DNA of 33,522 bases from Gemmatimonadota bacterium (GTDB lineage: Bacteria > Gemmatimonadota > Gemmatimonadetes > Palauibacterales > Palauibacteraceae), in contig JAOTZH010000018.1 in the NCBI GenBank assembly GCA_029861425.1, forward strand, positions 1-33,522, given 5' to 3'. A model generated the notes under the pieces. It did no database searches, was not told where the DNA came from, and saw nothing but the letters and a program-made list of their open reading frames with translations. Below are positions 12,910-20,330 of the stretch, piece after piece. A program made the position numbers and the translations under genes. How positions within the stretch are numbered: position 1 is the first letter of the stretch; the number at the start of each line of letters is the position of its first letter.

Positions 12910-14832
12910 TCAGTTCATTCGGGAGAGCTCTCCCCCCAGGGCCGCCGCGCTCGGCACCCGGTCATTCGGGTTCTTGGCGAGCAGGCGGTGGATCAGGGCG
13001 CAAACGGCGTCGGGCGTACCTTCGGCCAACTCGCCGAGCGGCGGCGGCTCTTCCCCCAGGACCTTCGCGATCAGCGTGATCGCCGATCCTCCGTCCAGCG
13101 GGGGACGCCCGGACAGGCACTCGTACAGGACGACCCCGACCGAATAGAGGTCGCTGCGTTCATCGATGTGCTCGCCGATCAGCTGTTCAGGTGACATGTA
13201 GGCGGGCGTCCCGACGAGGGCGCCGGCCTGTGTCAGCGTCGAGGACCGCTCGGACAGACATGCGACCCCGAAGTCCATCACCTTGAGCACGCCCTCCTCG
13301 TCGAGGAGGAGATTTTGCGGCTTGATGTCGCGGTGGACGACTCCCTGCGCATGCGCGATGGCGAGCGATTCGGCCAGCTGGGCGGCGACGGCGAGGACCG
13401 CTGAGACCCCCAGCTTTCCACGGCTGTCGATCAGGTCTCTGAGCGTCAGTCCTTCCACGAACTCCATCGTCAGGAACCGTACTCCATCCGCCTCGCCGAA
13501 ATCGTGGGTGCGCACGACGTTCGGGTGGGAGATCCGACGGGCCAGCTTGATCTCCGTCTTGAACCGCTCGAGCGACTCCGCGTCCGCGATGAACTCCGGC
13601 CGGAGCATCTTGATCGCGACGTCTTCCTCGAGCTCGAGATCGCGAGCCCGGTATACCGCACCCATGCCGCCGTGCCCCAGCAATCCGGCGATCTCGTACC
13701 GTTCGGCAAAGGTCTCCCCCGCCTGGAGCTGTCCGCCCTCGAAGGGCTCGGCGACCGTACCGGCGCCGCGTGCCGCGTCGATCTCCTGTCGCAGCTCGCG
13801 AACGCGGGTTCGGAGTCGCGTCTCGCGTGCCCGGACCTCGCCGGCCATCGAATCGAAGACCCTCGCCAGCCGTCCGAGCGCGTCCGCCCGGTGTCCCACC
13901 TCCGTCAGCGAGCCCCGATCGTAGGCCCCTGCCTCGACGGAGGCCGCCGCCTCGATCACCCGGTCGACCTGCCGGAGGTAGTCGACTTCCTGATCGCGAA
14001 AGCGCTTCTTTTCGAGGGACGCGTCGATCCGCGCCCGCAGGAGGACGGGGTCGAACGGCTTCGGCAGATAGTCCTCCGCACCGTTCTCGATGCACCGCAC
14101 TATGCTCCGGATATCGTCGAGGGCGGAGATCATGATCACCGGGATATCGCGTGTCGACGGGTCGCCCTTCAGCCGGTCGAGCGTCTCGTATCCGTCCATC
14201 TCGGGCATCATCACGTCGAGCAGCACGAGGTCGTAGGGCGACTCGGCCACTCGTTCGAGCGCTTCGACACCGTTTACGGCGCACTCCGGTGCGTGCCCTT
14301 CCCGCTCCAGTCGGCGTCGCAGGACTTCCCGGTTGTTCTCGTCGTCGTCGACCACCAGGATCCGCGCTCGACCATTCTCCGCCGATCGGTCCGCGTCCGT
14401 AGCCTGTCGGGACGACTCCCGCTCGGCGGTCGCGATGCCCGGCGGCGCGAGCTTCTCCGCCGCCTCCCGGATACGCTCGAGATCTCCGGTGAACCCCTCG
14501 TCGGCGGCCACGTCGGGCATGCCTCTCAGGGCCTCGACCGACGCGAGCACGCGCTCTCGTGGGGATTGGAACGCCGCGTACAGGGCGCGAACGTCCTCGT
14601 CGGACGGCTCGGAGAGCGTCGGCGGCAAGGCGGTGTTGATCTCCTTCAGGATGTCGCCCGCCGCGCCGATGATCGCCTCGATCTGCCCCCGACGGGCGGC
14701 GTGGGCCTCTCCCTCGGAGTCTTCCAGCAGCATCTCCGCGAACCCGACGATGTGGTTGATGGGCGTGCGAAGCTCGTGACGCAGCTGCTTGGCGGCCTCG
14801 GGGACGCCGGACTCCGGGGAGTAGGAGCTCAT
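12910..14832 (-). CDS. HisKA - receiver - HAMP-like - Ser/Thr protein kinase fusion
   Basis: A 640-aa cytoplasmic signalling protein. Residues 15-70 form a HisKA-like helix pair with an intact H-box QLRHELRTPINHIVGF (H19), but no HATPase domain follows. A receiver covers about 157-275, with acidic pocket D162-D164, phosphoacceptor D206 (LVLLDVMMPEMDGYE) and K258 (YLPKPF). A HAMP-like coiled linker (LGRLARVFDSMAGEVRARE) spans about 285-350. A complete Hanks-type kinase covers 379-635: GHGGMG (386-391), K408, E427, HRD 500-502, DFG 520-522 and GTPAYMSPEQ. The ATG at 14832 overlaps the stop of the preceding receiver gene as ATGA, so the two are coupled. H19 could only be phosphorylated by another kinase, probably one of the two encoded upstream. 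No transmembrane helix is seen. Confidence 0.93.
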   Translation of the reverse strand: MSSYSPESGVPEAAKQLRHELRTPINHIVGFAEMLLEDSEGEAHAARRGQIEAIIGAAGDILKEINTALPPTLSEPSDEDVRALYAAFQSPRERVLASVEALRGMPDVAADEGFTGDLERIREAAEKLAPPGIATAERESSRQATDADRSAENGRARILVVDDDENNREVLRRRLEREGHAPECAVNGVEALERVAESPYDLVLLDVMMPEMDGYETLDRLKGDPSTRDIPVIMISALDDIRSIVRCIENGAEDYLPKPFDPVLLRARIDASLEKKRFRDQEVDYLRQVDRVIEAAASVEAGAYDRGSLTEVGHRADALGRLARVFDSMAGEVRARETRLRTRVRELRQEIDAARGAGTVAEPFEGGQLQAGETFAERYEIAGLLGHGGMGAVYRARDLELEEDVAIKMLRPEFIADAESLERFKTEIKLARRISHPNVVRTHDFGEADGVRFLTMEFVEGLTLRDLIDSRGKLGVSAVLAVAAQLAESLAIAHAQGVVHRDIKPQNLLLDEEGVLKVMDFGVACLSERSSTLTQAGALVGTPAYMSPEQLIGEHIDERSDLYSVGVVLYECLSGRPPLDGGSAITLIAKVLGEEPPPLGELAEGTPDAVCALIHRLLAKNPNDRVPSAAALGGELSRMN

Positions 14833-15200
14833 GACCCGTCTGGCAGGAGGGCTTCGATCTTGGAGAGCAGCCGCTTGAGCTCGATCGGCTTGGTGTCGTA
14901 GTCGTCGCACCCCGCCTCGAGCGCCTTCTCACGGTCTCCGGCCATCGCGTGCGCCGTCAGGGCGATGATCGGGAGCGACTCCGTGTCCGGATTGGCCCTG
15001 AGCTGACGCGTGGCCTCCCACCCATCGATCTCGGGCAGGCTCATGTCCATCAGTACAAGGTCGTACTCGCCCGTCGACGCCTGCTCGACGCCCTCTCGTC
15101 CATCGACGGCGATCGCGACCTCGAAGCCACGGCGGGTCAGTCGCCGTGACAGCATGTCGCGGTTCATCTCGTTGTCCTCGACCAGGAGAATCCTCGGCAT
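14829..15200 (-). CDS. Stand-alone response regulator receiver
   Basis: A 123-aa single receiver domain without output domain, like CheY or DivK. Acidic pocket E8-D9 (LLVEDNEMNRDML), phosphoacceptor D52 (LVLMDMSLPEIDGWEA), the LTAHAM switch region near 81-86 and K104 (YDTKPIELKRLL) are all present. The gene starts in the stop codon of the upstream histidine kinase (TGATG) and its own stop overlaps the start of the Ser/Thr kinase fusion (ATGA). That order suggests it carries phosphate between the kinase before it and the HisKA domain of the fusion after it, or serves as a detached receiver of the receiver-less kinase. The partner assignment is inference. Confidence 0.93.
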   Translation of the reverse strand: MPRILLVEDNEMNRDMLSRRLTRRGFEVAIAVDGREGVEQASTGEYDLVLMDMSLPEIDGWEATRQLRANPDTESLPIIALTAHAMAGDREKALEAGCDDYDTKPIELKRLLSKIEALLPDGS

Positions 15201-17317
15201 CAGTCGGTCTCCGTCATCGGCGAATCACTCTCCCCGCTTTGTGTACCGTTGGCGGGCAGGAGGAGGGTGAACGCGGATCCGACCCCCAGCTCGCTCTCCA
15301 CTCTTACGTCCCCGCCCATCATCCGACAGAACCGCTTCGTGATCGCCAGACCGAGACCCGTCCCGCCGTACTTGCTGGAAGTGGCCGCTTCGGCCTGCGA
15401 AAAGGCCTCGAACACGCGTTCCAACTGCTCCGGAGACATCCCGATCCCCGTGTCCGTCACCTTGAACTCGATTGTCTCCGTGTCTCCCTCTCCCGCGCGG
15501 GACACGGCGAGCCCGATCGTGCCGGCTTCCGTGAACTTGCTCGCGTTCGACAGGAGGTTGAGAAGCATCTGCCTGACCTTCGTCAGGTCACCGTTCATCT
15601 GCCCCGGCTCACCCTCGTACCGGAGATCGAAGTCGTTCTGGTTCTTCTCGATCAGCGGCCGCGCGGTGGTCAGCACGTCGTCGATCATCTCGGCGACCTC
15701 GAACGTCTCGTAGAACATCTCCATCCGCCCCGACTCGATCTTCGAGAGATCCAGCACGTCGTTGATGAGCGACAACAGGTGCTTCCCGGCGGTGTGGATC
15801 TTCTCGAGATCGGCCGTGAGGTCGCCCTGGCCGAGATCCTCCATCTCCTCCTGTACAAGCTCGCTGTAGCCGATGATCGCGTTCAGTGGCGTGCGCAGCT
15901 CGTGGCTCATGCTCGCGAGGAAGCGACTCTTGGCGCTGTTCGCGGCCTCGGCCTCGCGCCTTGCTTCCAGAAGCTCCGTGATGTCGTGATAGATGCCCAT
16001 CAGCCCGACGCGCTCGCCCTCCACGAGGACGGGGACGCCGAGGACCTCGACGTCGACCGTGGAGCCGTCCTTCCTGTTGCGGCGTCCCATACCGTGAATG
16101 GGGCGATCGAGCGCTTCCGTGGTGTAGCCGATCGCCTCGGAACGGGTCTCTTCGGTCGTGATCAGCGTGTCGAGCTTCCGGCCCACCGCCTCCTCTGTGC
16201 TGTAACCGAACAGCGTCTCGAACGCCGGGTTGCAGGAGACGATCTCGTGCTCGGCGTCCAGCGTCACGATGGCGACGGGGCTGTTCGAGACCAGCGTCTC
16301 GAAGTACTCCCGCTGGTTCTGAGCCGCCGTGTAGAGCCGCGCGTTCTCGATCGCGATCGCGGCCTGCGGAGCGAAGAGGTTGAGGAGCCGGAGATCTTCC
16401 TCGTCGAACACGTGGTCGGGGTCGGCATGCACGGTGGCGATCGCGCCGACGAGCCGTCGCCCGATCATGAGCGGCGCGGCCATGACCGAGTGAACGAGAA
16501 CGTCCTCGTACTGCACCGACTTCCCGAGCCACTCGTGATAGGAGGGAATGATGAGCGGCTCGTTCGTCTCTGCGACGTGTCCCATCGCCCCTTCGCCGAG
16601 CGCGATGTGCACCCCGATCGAGTCCACGCCCACCTTCTCGCTCGCCACGATCACGAGCTCCTGAGCATCTTCGTCCCAGATGGCGACCTCGCCGCCCGTC
16701 ACGCCGATGAGCGTGACCGCACGGGCGAGGACAGCCTGGAGGACTCGCTCGAGCTCCAGCTCGGAAGACAGATCGCTCATCGTGTCGAGAAGGGCCCGGT
16801 GTTCCTCGACCCGCTCGCGCTCCTGCTCGAGTAGCCGCGCGCGGCCGATCGCGATCCCGGCCTGATTCACCGCTGCCGTGAGGATCTCGAAGTCGTCCGG
16901 GCCGAACGCGGCGGGCTCGGAGCTCTCGACCACCAACACGCCGATCGTCATGCCGTTGACCCTCAGGGGCACGTCGATCTCCGACCCGCTCGCCAGGCTC
17001 GGCAGGTACCCCGACTCCCCGCGGACGTCTGCGGTGTAGTGGAGCTCGCCGTCCTCGATCGCTCTGGAGCTCAGGCCTTCGCCGGCCGGGATGCGCCACT
17101 GGTCGGGAGCGTCCGGCCAGCCGATACTCGCCTGCAGCACCCGGTCGCCGGTGTCCTCGTCGACCACGAACGCACCGAGGAAGCTGTAGCCGATCGCCTC
17201 GTCCTGAAGCCCGTGGACGAGCGAGCGATAGACCGCGGCTTCGTCCCGCGCCGCCGCGATCTCGGTCGTAAGCCGGAGCAGCGCGCCCTGACGCCGGGCG
17301 GCGTCGTTGCCGTTCAC
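15200..17317 (-). CDS. GAF-GAF-PAS sensor histidine kinase
   Basis: Soluble sensor kinase of 705 aa with no membrane helix. Domains: GAF 1 about 27-160, GAF 2 about 186-328, PAS about 336-452 ([20 protein letters not shown]), HisKA with H472 ([19 protein letters not shown]), and HATPase about 576-688 with N591 ([12 protein letters not shown]), DTGIGM (622-627) and GGTGLGLAI (651-659). It has no receiver; the next gene supplies one. The GTG at 17317 was chosen because its product aligns with the N-terminus of the paralog and GGGAG lies eight bases before it. The ATG that overlaps the upstream stop is out of frame and opens only a 13-codon mini-ORF. The frame is open upstream to 17413, but that part is non-homologous. 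It is a clear paralog of the kinase encoded just before it. Confidence 0.93.
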
Positions 17318-17355
17318 GACCCCAGCTCCCGGGACCCCGGGCAGTGGCGACTCAT
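17314..17355 (-). promoter_or_regulatory. Coupling element between the two histidine kinase genes: mini-ORF plus SD-masking hairpin
   Basis: The first kinase's TGA overlaps an ATG as ATGA (17355-17352). That ATG opens a 13-codon ORF ([13 protein letters not shown]) whose TGA (17316-17314) overlaps the GTG start of the second kinase (17317-17315) as GTGA. Within it, CCCGGG (17336-17341) and CCCGGG (17328-17333) can fold into a hairpin whose 3' arm overlaps the GGGAG ribosome binding site (17326-17330). Ribosomes passing through the mini-ORF would open the hairpin. The overlaps and the repeat are seen; the coupling mechanism is inferred. Confidence 0.5.
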
Positions 17356-20330
17356 GACCCGACCCGCGTCGCGACCACCTGCCGTACCTCGGCGAGCAGC
17401 TCTTCCACGGCAAAGGCCCGCTTCTCGAACACCTGCTCCACGCCGCCGTTCAGCCGCCGGCGGTCTTCGACGGTGAGCTCCTTCGCCGTGATCACGATCA
17501 CCGGAACGTCATGCATCTCCGGCCGCGCACGGAGCTCATCCAGGAAATCGAACCCGTCCATCTCCGGCATCATGAGATCGAGCAGGATCAGGCCGGGAGT
17601 GGTCTCCTGGAGGACCTCGAGGGCCGCCCGACCGTTTTCCGACTCGAGCACGTCGACGTTCTCGCCCTCCAGGGTGCGACGGATGAGGTGACGCGTGGTC
17701 GCGTCGTCCTCGACGATGAGGACGGAGGAGCGCTCCTCCCCGAGGTGTCGGCGAAGGACCTCGACCAGACGGCCTCTGTCGATCGGCTTCGACAGGAATT
17801 CGGACGCGCCGAGCGAGTAGCCGAGGTTCCGGTCATCGATGATGGTCACCATCACGACCGGGATGTCCGACAGCTCTGGATCTGCCTTGAGCGCGGTCAG
17901 CACCGCCCACCCATCCATGCCCGGCATCAGCACGTCCAGCGTGATCGCCGCCGGCTTCTCACTTCGCGCGAGCTCCAGCCCTTCCTCGCCCGTCTCGGCC
18001 TGAAGCACACGGAGGTTTTCCTTTCGGAGCGTGCGGCTGATCAGGTCCCGAACCGCGGGGTCGTCGTCGATCACCAGAACGGTCGCTCCGTCGGCGACCG
18101 GGAGATCGACCCTCTCCGCCGCTTCCGCCGACGACTCGTCGACCGGGCTCGGGTCTTCGGACGCGATGCCTTCGACCGATATCGCCCTTGGAAGTCTGAC
18201 GGTGAACACGGACCCCTCGCCGGGCGTGCTCGACACCTCGACATCGCCACCCATCATCCGGCAGAACTCGCGGCTGATCGCGAGTCCGAGCCCGGTGCCG
18301 CCGAACTTGCTGGTCGTCGACGCTTCGGCCTGAGCGAAGGCTTCGAAGATCCGGCTGACCTGCTCGTCGTCCATGCCGATCCCGGTATCTCGAACCGAAA
18401 AGACGACCTGTTCGCCGCGTGCACCGTCCGCGACCGGATCCGTGCCGACAGTCAGTGTGATCGTGCCATTCTCGGTGAACTTGGACGCGTTCGAGAGCAG
18501 GTTGAGGAGGATCTGCCGGATACGCGTGACGTCCGCCGTCATCTCGCCGAGCCCTTCCGCCGAATCGATGACGAACCGGTTCGAGTTCTTCTCGACGAGC
18601 GGAGTCACGGTCGAGGCGACGCCGTCGACGACCTCTTCAATGTCGAAGGTCTCGACGAACAGCTCCATCTTGCCGGCCTCGATCTTCGACAGATCGAGGA
18701 TGTCGTTGATCAGCGTGAGCAGGTGCCGGCCGGCGCCGTGGATCTTCTGGAGGTCCGGGATGAAGTCGTCCTGTCCCGTGTCTTCCGCATCCTCCTGGAG
18801 CATTTCGCTATAGCCGATGATCGCGTTGAGCGGCGTGCGTAGCTCGTGGCTCATGCTCGCGAGGAACCGGCTCTTCGCGGTGTTCGCGGCCTCGGCATCG
18901 TGACGCGCCGCCAGGAGCTCGGTGATGTCGTTGTAGAGGCCCATCATGCCGACACGCTCGCCGCCGACGATGACCGGCACGGCGCGGATCTGCACGTCCA
19001 CCAGCGATCCGTCCTTGCGCCGACGTTGTCCGATGCCCGCGACAGCCCGGTCTCCCGCGGCTTTCGTGTATTGCTGCGCTTCGGCTCGGCTCTCGTCGGT
19101 CGCGATGTGGTCGTCGAGGTTCTGTCCGATGAGCTCGGACTCACGGTACCCGTACAGGGCCTCGAACGCGGGGTTGCAGGCGATCACATGGTGATCCCGA
19201 TCCAGCGTGACGATCGCGATCGGGCTGTTCCCAACCAGTTCCTCGAAGTACTGCTTACGGTTCTGGGCAACCGCGTAGATGCGAGCGTTGTCGATGGCGA
19301 CCGCGGCCTGACGGGCGAAGAGCTCCAGCAGCCGCATGTCGTCCCCCGCGAACTGCCGTTCGCGGTCGGAGTGCCAGAAGTTGATCGCTCCGACCAGCCG
19401 GTTCCGGATCACGAGTGGGACGACGGCGGAAGCGTGGACCTCGATATCGGCGTACCGGTCGAGACGCCCCTCCCAACTCGCATAGTCGTCGATGACAAGC
19501 GCCTCCCGAGACGCCGCGGCTTCGCCCATGAGACCCTGTCCCAGCGCCATCCTGGTCCCGACCGAAACCTCGGTTGCGCCGCGGTGCGCGACGATCTCGA
19601 GCTCCTCCGATTCGTCGTGGTAGATGGCGAGCTCGCCACCGCTCACGCCCAGGACGGACGTCGCCCTGCCGAGTACGGAGTCGAGCAGACTCGACAGATC
19701 GAGCTCGGACGTGAGATCCGCGAGCGTGTCGAACAACGCGCTCTGTTCCTCCGAGCGTCTTCGCTCGCGGGCCAGAAGCCGGCTCTGCTGCTCCGTGAGG
19801 CGGGCGCGACCGATCGCGATGCTCGCGAGATCGGCCGCGGCCGTGAGGATCTCGAGGTCGGCGTCGTCGAACGCCTCCGTCGTCTCGCTTTCGACTACGA
19901 GGACTCCCACCACCTCCGCGTCCAGTATGAGCGGGACGTCGACCTCGGAACCGGAGCTCAGTCCGGGCACGTAGAGCGGCTCCTTCGTCACGTCGGGCGT
20001 GTACCGCAGCGCTTCGGCCTTGACGGCAAGCGCGCTCAGCCCCTCGTCCTCGGGGATTCTCCAGCCGTCGGCGAGCCCCGACCACCCGACGGAGGCACGG
20101 AGAACGCGTTCGCGCGCGTCCCCTTCGATGAGGAACATCGCCACGAAATGGAAGCCCAGAGACTCGTCGCGGAGGCCTTCGACGACGTTGTGGCAGACTT
20201 CGCTCTCGTCGGTGGATGCGGCGATCGCCGCGCTGAGCCTCAGCAGCGCGGACTCACGAGCCAAACCGCGTTGTGCGCGGCCGTCGGCGGAAGAGTCGCC
20301 GCGGCCGGCCGTGTTGGACTGATCGGGCAT
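17352..20330 (-). CDS. GAF-GAF-PAS hybrid histidine kinase with two C-terminal receivers
   Basis: First gene of the signalling operon, 992 aa, no membrane helix. Domains: GAF 1 about 40-175, GAF 2 about 205-350, PAS about 358-470 ([20 protein letters not shown]), HisKA with H495, and HATPase about 600-715 with N614, DTGIGM (648-653) and GGTGLGLAI (677-685). Receiver 1 (about 750-862) has D755-D757, D799 and K848. Receiver 2 (about 868-985) has D918 and K970 (VFEKRAF). Both receivers keep their phosphoacceptor and lysine. The GAF domains lack the cysteine motif of bilin-binding phytochromes that I could recognise, so the ligand is unknown. The first 700 residues are paralogous to the next gene's product. 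The ATG at 20330 faces the metalloprotease gene across 156 bases. Confidence 0.95.

Follow-up and report, generated by a model that had tools for sequence, protein, structure and literature searches.

A recurring Gemmatimonadota operon encodes the parts of a probable phosphorelay with a Hanks-type Ser/Thr kinase as output

Two-component and Hanks-kinase signaling in bacteria have mostly been studied separately, the two meeting by cross-phosphorylation. The Spo0F–Spo0B–Spo0A relay of Bacillus subtilis comprises a single-domain receiver, a DHp-type histidine phosphotransferase, and a second receiver with an output. In the yeast HOG pathway, the His-Asp-His-Asp relay Sln1–Ypd1–Ssk1 controls the Ser/Thr kinase Ssk2. 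The cyanobacterial adenylate cyclase CyaC is phosphorelay controlled, with histidine kinase, receivers, and cyclase in one protein, and HstK, also cyanobacterial, is reportedly (by title) a Ser/Thr and His kinase, a single protein with a histidine kinase domain. The excerpted part of PMC3433190 describes the four-helix bundle of Spo0B as built from hairpins of two subunits, and ChpT as a free-standing dimer whose ATP-binding fold is atypical. ChpT belongs to the Caulobacter CckA–ChpT–CtrA/CpdR system, which the excerpt of PMC9981736 presents as a hybrid kinase, a phosphotransferase of pseudo-kinase type, and receiver outputs.

We analyzed a stretch of 33,522 nucleotides (the window) from a Gemmatimonadota bacterium of the family Palauibacteraceae (assembly GCA_029861425.1, contig JAOTZH010000018.1, positions 1 to 33,522). 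It contains an operon of four overlapping genes, all on the minus strand, spanning 12910–20330. Its features are as follows, with the basis of each assignment in parentheses.

17352..20330, minus strand: histidine kinase HK1, 992 aa, a soluble hybrid of order GAF-GAF-PAS-HisKA(H495)-HATPase-REC(D799)-REC(D918) (Pfam, translation, residue check)
17314..17355, minus strand: 13-aa ORF bridging HK1 and HK2 with overlaps of a few bases (sequence)
15200..17317, minus strand: histidine kinase HK2, GTG start, 705 aa, GAF-GAF-PAS-HisKA(H472)-HATPase without a receiver (Pfam, paralogy with HK1)
14829..15200, minus strand: lone receiver (single-domain response regulator), 123 aa, with D52, T82, and K104, the putative shuttle (Pfam; position next to the kinase gene)
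12910..14832, minus strand: output protein, 640 aa, tandem DHp, REC, HAMP-like/coiled coil, and Hanks Ser/Thr kinase (Pfam, models)
14629..14799, minus strand: DHp hairpin 1 of the output protein, aa 12–68, with predicted phospho-acceptor H19 (column count, AlphaFold2 model)
14455..14601, minus strand: DHp hairpin 2, aa 78–126, a degenerate repeat without His (profile comparison, model)
14026..14361, minus strand: output receiver domain, aa 158–269, with D162, D163, D206, S236, and K258 (Pfam; identical in 29/29 rows)
13765..13977, minus strand: HAMP-like segment that continues as a coiled coil, approximately aa 286–356, between receiver and kinase (HAMP matches of relatives, model helices)
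12949..13698, minus strand: Hanks-type Ser/Thr kinase domain, aa 379–628, catalytic residues intact (Pfam)

In the sequence, the stop codon of HK1 overlaps the ATG of the 13-aa ORF (ATGA), which in turn ends in a TGA that overlaps the HK2 start codon GTG; the junctions are TGATG between HK2 and the lone receiver and ATGA between the receiver and the kinase gene. The 13-aa ORF may be a translational coupling device, or a chance occurrence. On either side of the operon lie a divergent DUF5117/DUF4953 metalloprotease gene and, downstream, an amidohydrolase gene. The four overlapping minus-strand genes described in an initial annotation of this DNA are confirmed by the sequence and the Pfam domains, and each residue cited there (H495, D799, D918, H472, D52, H19, and D206) was found at its position.

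The operon is like Spo0F–Spo0B–Spo0A in having a lone receiver, a DHp-type module, and an output receiver. It differs from Spo0B in that a single chain contains both hairpins and continues into the second receiver, and from Spo0A in that the output is a Ser/Thr kinase rather than a DNA-binding domain. By its architecture, the tandem DHp fits a phosphotransferase of the Spo0B/ChpT type. A hybrid kinase, a candidate phosphotransferase, and receiver outputs are likewise shared with CckA–ChpT–CtrA/CpdR, whereas the window module, unlike ChpT, is a tandem DHp without an ATPase domain. The proposed chain would end at a Ser/Thr kinase as the yeast Sln1 relay does; receiver and kinase are separate there and fused here, and yeast has an HPt where the window has a DHp tandem. 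Both kinase types occur within one system, as in HstK, but the Ser/Thr kinase protein of the window has no HATPase match and would receive phosphate from other proteins. With CyaC, the operon would share an enzyme output under phosphorelay control, but it has a separate histidine kinase, a lone receiver, and a tandem DHp. We do not claim membership in the Spo0 or yeast Sln1 relays; the likeness would be one of logic.

The initial annotation had proposed a search for the same gene order in related genomes. A full-length homolog of the output protein was found in 3 of 59 other relatives. With its first 344 residues as query, at least 35 of 393 other class genomes and at least 40 of 394 other phylum genomes gave matches that reached E 1e-45 or better. 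The draws (394 class and 395 phylum genomes, own genome included) overlap, and both counts are lower bounds because only the five best first-look candidates per genome were scored. The class set comprised 36 loci from 35 genomes (G379 has two), in which domain order was read with window-protein queries. At 28 of these loci the DHp-REC-kinase protein lies in one frame (L088 is cut inside the kinase by a contig edge). A lone receiver lies 15 to 54 bases upstream of the DHp match at all 28, and a histidine kinase lies within 1.2 kb at 27; the exception, L093, is at a contig edge and shows the two receivers of the kinase. By this 28/28 recurrence, the order of lone receiver then DHp-REC-kinase is more than chance, and its restriction to this one genome is excluded. 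An operon unique to the window genome was likewise rejected, homologs being present in class and phylum genomes. Eight class loci were left out: L096 (split over two frames), L100 and L101 (no DHp), L102 to L104, and L105 and L106 (cyclase). L100 (5366–6982) and L101 (5276–6889), from two class genomes, encode REC-linker-Ser/Thr kinase proteins without a DHp match, HAMP being matched in L100. In L103 (9350–12624), the kinase homolog has an eroded H-box and directly follows a receiver-EAL gene (c-di-GMP phosphodiesterase type) instead of a lone receiver.

We also scanned named genomes with alignment A2 and kept the best 80 loci, a set that overlaps the class set. The Ser/Thr-kinase type accounts for 33 of these 80: 30 from Gemmatimonadota, two labeled only 'bacterium' (L116, L141), and one from Rokuibacteriota (L137). 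Excluding L121, a lone receiver is present in 31/32 and a histidine kinase in 29/32; among the exceptions, contig edges cut off L124 and L125, and both genes are missing from L137. The kinase-output gene of L137 (3831–5693) is missing the H-box segment, and the 3.8 kb upstream contain no lone-receiver or histidine-kinase match. In L121 (1182–3254), the kinase-type output gene is broken by one stop between receiver and linker.

The operon was not found in any of the 16 same-genus genomes examined (G001–G016), and its distribution therefore points to patchy loss or transfer. Ser/Thr kinases matching at E 1e-40 occur, among these 16, in G004 only. The window contig is probably not misbinned: its Rho shows 66 to 81% identity across the matched part in 15 of the 16 same-genus genomes, with G004 giving 54% only, to another Rho copy. 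Identities are 65 to 73% in other genera of the family (G023, 77% over a short part only) and 62 to 68% in six of eight genomes from the order's other family, the other two giving 53% to another copy and nothing. No conserved flanking target gene was seen around the loci; the first non-operon cluster spans four loci, and the large neighbor clusters are, by coordinates, frames opposite to or inside operon genes.

Pfam places HisKA at aa 14–61 of the output protein with 28.5 bits, barely above the 26.9 cut-off, followed by Response_reg and Pkinase. The N-terminus is composed of two DHp hairpins in tandem without an ATPase domain, and Pfam found no HATPase family in any of 29 output proteins; H19 therefore needs an outside phosphodonor. 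A histidine kinase has an ATP-binding HATPase domain after its DHp; with no such family matched in these 29 rows, the output protein is not classed as one. The earlier assignment of H19 to a kinase is not borne out; the residue sits in an ATPase-less tandem DHp, a module of phosphotransfer type. Relatives from other phyla have tandem HisKA hairpins with which the H19 region can be aligned. Because the 69 DHp rows (window and 68 others) and alignments A4 and A5 were chosen by a pattern requiring His, their unbroken H19 column is not independent evidence. Seven candidates without the pattern were left out of the 69 (two of them, L160 and L167, do carry an H-box), and further rows, such as L115, L133, L151, L164, and L169, are absent owing to filters. 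For an unbiased count, candidates were chosen by the receiver alone, with no His required. In the class set, a DHp match covers the H19 column in 35 of 37 candidate frames, and His is present in 33 of the 35, window included. The exceptions are Tyr in L102 and Leu in L106, the latter probably a shifted alignment because the H-box pattern is present in L106. Of 81 frames in the named set, 76 have a DHp match over this column, all of them with His; frames without the match are L137, L163, L170, L186, and L187 (split).

Repeat 2 carries a His in 17 of the 69 rows, comprising 0/31 of kinase type (29 so labeled, L121, and L127), 9/19 of cyclase type (row L176 is misplaced in the repeat alignment), and 8/19 others. 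For the 17 two-His rows, profiles of repeats 1 and 2 match each other with 99.9% probability (E 4e-36). The kinase-type repeat 2 matches the repeats of the two-His rows with 96 to 97% probability (E 2e-9 and 3e-10), whereas kinase-type repeat 1 matches its own repeat 2 with only 57% (72% with another cut). Single-sequence repeat scores are weak in the kinase family (Z over 3 in 4/29), so repeat homology there rests on profile comparison. As aligned, the second hairpin has lost its His in the kinase family and kept it in 17 relatives.

The tandem DHp is modeled as four long helices within one chain: AlphaFold2 (aa 1–146, 63 sequences) predicted helices 12–38, 42–68, 78–103, and 112–126, with mean pLDDT 87.7 and pTM 0.79, and an additional low-confidence helix at 133–145. 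Foldseek searches with this model gave generic helical matches only, at E 0.1 or more and none at E 0.001, and the top 50 matches listed include no DHp or HPt entry. The sequence profile of the tandem DHp matches histidine-kinase DHp domains of solved structures. Relative to an HPt domain (a single-chain four-helix bundle with one His), the model has the four helices, yet sequence homology is to HisKA DHp.

Both histidine kinases contain GAF, PAS, HisKA, and HATPase_c domains by Pfam; Response_reg is matched over two stretches of HK1 but nowhere in HK2. HK1, with its HisKA H-box, HATPase_c, and receivers, is a hybrid histidine kinase; HK2 has no receiver and is not a hybrid. The two are 56% identical, and within their own genome each matches only the other at E 1e-30. 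In named operons with at least two histidine kinases, the one adjoining the lone receiver lacks its own receiver in 11/15; in those with one, that kinase has two receivers of its own in 12/14.

The lone receiver, with E8, D9, D52, T82, and K104, is a single-domain response regulator. We compared receivers in 43 operons, that is, the window and those 42 of the 80 named loci from which all domains could be cut (a histidine kinase with two receivers, the lone receiver, and the output receiver). Helix alpha1, the receiver surface that meets DHp domains, is remarkably variable among homologs according to the excerpt of PMC9981736. Lone and output receivers share alpha1 at identities of 0.58 (24 kinase-type operons), 0.64 (10 cyclase-type), and 0.68 (9 other), against 0.32 to 0.42 for other receiver pairs in the 43 operons and only 0.31 to 0.33 for lone versus output receivers outside the interfaces. 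The beta4-alpha4 and beta5-alpha5 surfaces showed no such sharing in these operons. Position 13 of alpha1 is Asn in 43/43 lone and 43/43 output receivers; in hybrid-kinase receivers it is mostly Ala or Val in the first and mostly Thr or Ala in the second (Asn in three). Lone and output receivers have a common docking helix, unlike the receivers of the hybrid kinases. Operon-specific covariation of lone and output receivers was not found: alpha1 identity is 0.616 within and 0.619 between operons, and the shared helix is therefore a family signature.

Five class homologs without an intact H-box (L100–L104), representing only about three lineages, served as controls. L100 and L101 have no DHp, and L102 to L104 have an eroded H-box with no HisKA by Pfam, although the H19 column of L103 and L104 still shows His, the surrounding motif being gone. 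None has a lone receiver just upstream, and position 13 of alpha1 in their output receivers is Ile, Ile, Thr, Pro, and Pro, respectively. L137, despite lacking the H-box, retains the alpha1 Asn.

D206 and the kinase catalytic residues that we checked are identical in 29/29 aligned rows, window included. K408, E427, H500-R501-D502, N507, and D520-F-G are all intact, and by this residue set (K, E, HRD, N, DFG) the output protein is classed as a Hanks-type Ser/Thr kinase. The nearest solved relatives by sequence are PknB chains for the kinase domain and PleD for the output receiver. Between receiver and kinase, Pfam detects HAMP (E 0.01) in 19/29 rows, the window protein not among them. The full-length model places helices 262–301 and 318–356 around this linker, a helix-break-helix pattern; its pTM is 0.51, and the arrangement of domains in it is therefore unreliable. 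A HAMP-like linker, overlooked in the initial annotation, connects receiver and kinase.

We consider it probable that the operon is a four-step phosphorelay with a protein-kinase output, Spo0F/Spo0B/Spo0A-like, with a Hanks kinase joined in one protein to the phosphotransfer domain and the last receiver. HK1 and HK2 would sense intracellular signals via their GAF and PAS domains and, to judge from intact motifs, autophosphorylate at H495 and H472. The phosphate would pass from the kinases to D52 of the lone receiver, from D52 to H19 of the tandem DHp, acting as a phosphotransfer module without ATPase, and from H19 to D206 of the adjoining receiver. Phosphorylated D206 may then switch the Ser/Thr kinase via the HAMP-like/coiled-coil linker, probably by altering the kinase dimer, and the two receivers of HK1 may gate or drain phosphate flow. 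The comparison demonstrates architecture, conservation, and repeat homology; we infer each of these transfers and the sense of kinase control. A chain from soluble GAF/PAS sensors through a His-Asp relay to a Ser/Thr kinase had been suggested for this locus. It stands as the best reading (the operon is found repeatedly, H19 and D206 are conserved along with the kinase residues, and the lone receiver is present at 28/28 loci), with the corrections given above on H19, HK2, and the linker. Against the lone-receiver step, a histidine kinase with two receivers of its own, the arrangement in those 12 of 14 single-kinase named operons, could feed H19 directly.

The tandem DHp might instead be a platform for docking, dimerization, or phosphatase activity, with the histidine kinases phosphorylating D206 directly and the lone receiver serving as a phosphate sink or DHp-bound competitor. 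Hanks kinases are often controlled by dimerization, and all 31 aligned kinase-type rows lack a His in the second hairpin. T23, after H19, is as conserved as the His (29/29 rows); we take it to be the T of the HisKA phosphatase-type motif, and the tandem DHp could also dephosphorylate. We nevertheless judge this reading unlikely. Where no His was required for selection, H19 is kept in 33/35 class and 76/76 named frames, more than docking needs, and lone and output receivers are alike in alpha1, as though sharing one His domain.

Less probable still is a branched arrangement: the histidine kinases would use the lone receiver to reach partners outside the operon, binding or other phosphodonors would control the output protein, and the operon would reflect co-expression only. 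Lone receivers can act on several partners, and in two genomes (G047 and G056) the gene for the cyclase-type output and the histidine-kinase array occupy opposite strands. The lone receiver, however, adjoins the output gene in 28/28 class loci and was not seen just upstream in the five homologs without an intact H-box. It is very improbable that the kinase acts back on the relay, with Ser/Thr phosphorylation of the histidine kinases or receivers as feedback and no outside target. Response regulators are documented as Hanks kinase substrates in the excerpt of PMC6213207, and no recurring non-signaling neighbor gene suggests a target, but the same head also carries outputs incapable of such feedback, for example cyclases.

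Relative to the initial annotation, the system is real and recurring, and larger and more modular. The parts new to this analysis are the ATPase-less tandem DHp, the HAMP-like linker, the docking helix shared by lone and output receivers, and the varied outputs in other phyla. Among the best 80 named loci, the head carries a Ser/Thr kinase in 33, a cyclase in 22, a SpoIIE-type phosphatase in 4, an HD domain in 2, a HATPase histidine kinase in 3, a ParA-like ATPase in 5, and a linker only in 8; the remaining 3 (L163, L170, L186) are without DHp. Pfam supports the non-kinase calls for SpoIIE in 4/4, HD in 2/2, HATPase in 3/3, ParA-like in 1/5, linker-only in 2/8, and cyclases in 5/22 (the class cyclases L105 and L106 were also Pfam-checked), the rest being called by sequence similarity. 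In an unrooted, quick-method tree built from DHp and receiver together (68 rows, HATPase-type rows and L176 left out), a branch with support 97 sets the 31 kinase rows apart, and 13 output changes are needed, versus 33 with shuffled labels. By this tree, the kinase version is one clade. The Ser/Thr kinase at the proposed relay's end, as earlier suggested, is intact on a recurring head, but it is only one of several outputs on that head.

We give about even odds to a broader reading, in which a DHp dimer has been fused into one chain, one of its hairpins is decaying toward an HPt-like single-His bundle, and the resulting tandem counts as a phosphotransfer domain in its own right. It would stand at the head of a plug-in relay, made up of a hybrid kinase, a lone receiver, and a tandem DHp-receiver, to which bacteria of many phyla have attached no fewer than six kinds of output, the Gemmatimonadota version driving a Hanks kinase as a bacterial counterpart of the yeast relay-to-MAP-kinase junction. 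In the literature searched, with subscription papers mostly outside its scope, we found no description of a DHp-REC-Ser/Thr kinase relay architecture, which does not prove absence. The recurring operon appears to unite two-component and Hanks-kinase signaling by design, with all parts co-encoded, and is small enough for in vitro rebuilding. Since relatives of the tandem DHp variously show two histidines, a single one, or no second hairpin at all, the possible origin of monomeric HPt-like domains from dimeric kinase domains would become directly testable, and a head that occurs with different enzymes offers a natural modular input for engineered signaling.

Several individual loci show further arrangements of the head. 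In cyanobacteria it carries a ParA/MinD-like ATPase (L147, L149, L155, L156, and L179, with Pfam on L147 only), and these five rows fall on one side of a branch with support 100. A Chloroflexota locus (L144, 3422–12002) encodes, in order, HK-REC-REC, a lone receiver, tandem DHp-REC-HisKA-HATPase, HK-REC, and DHp-REC-HD; with two heads in series, it looks like a relay feeding a second relay. In L105 (10281–11897) and L106 (4544–6151), both of the same class as the window genome, a HisKA-REC-cyclase gene is divergent from the histidine-kinase array, and in L105 the lone receiver lies at the far end of that array.
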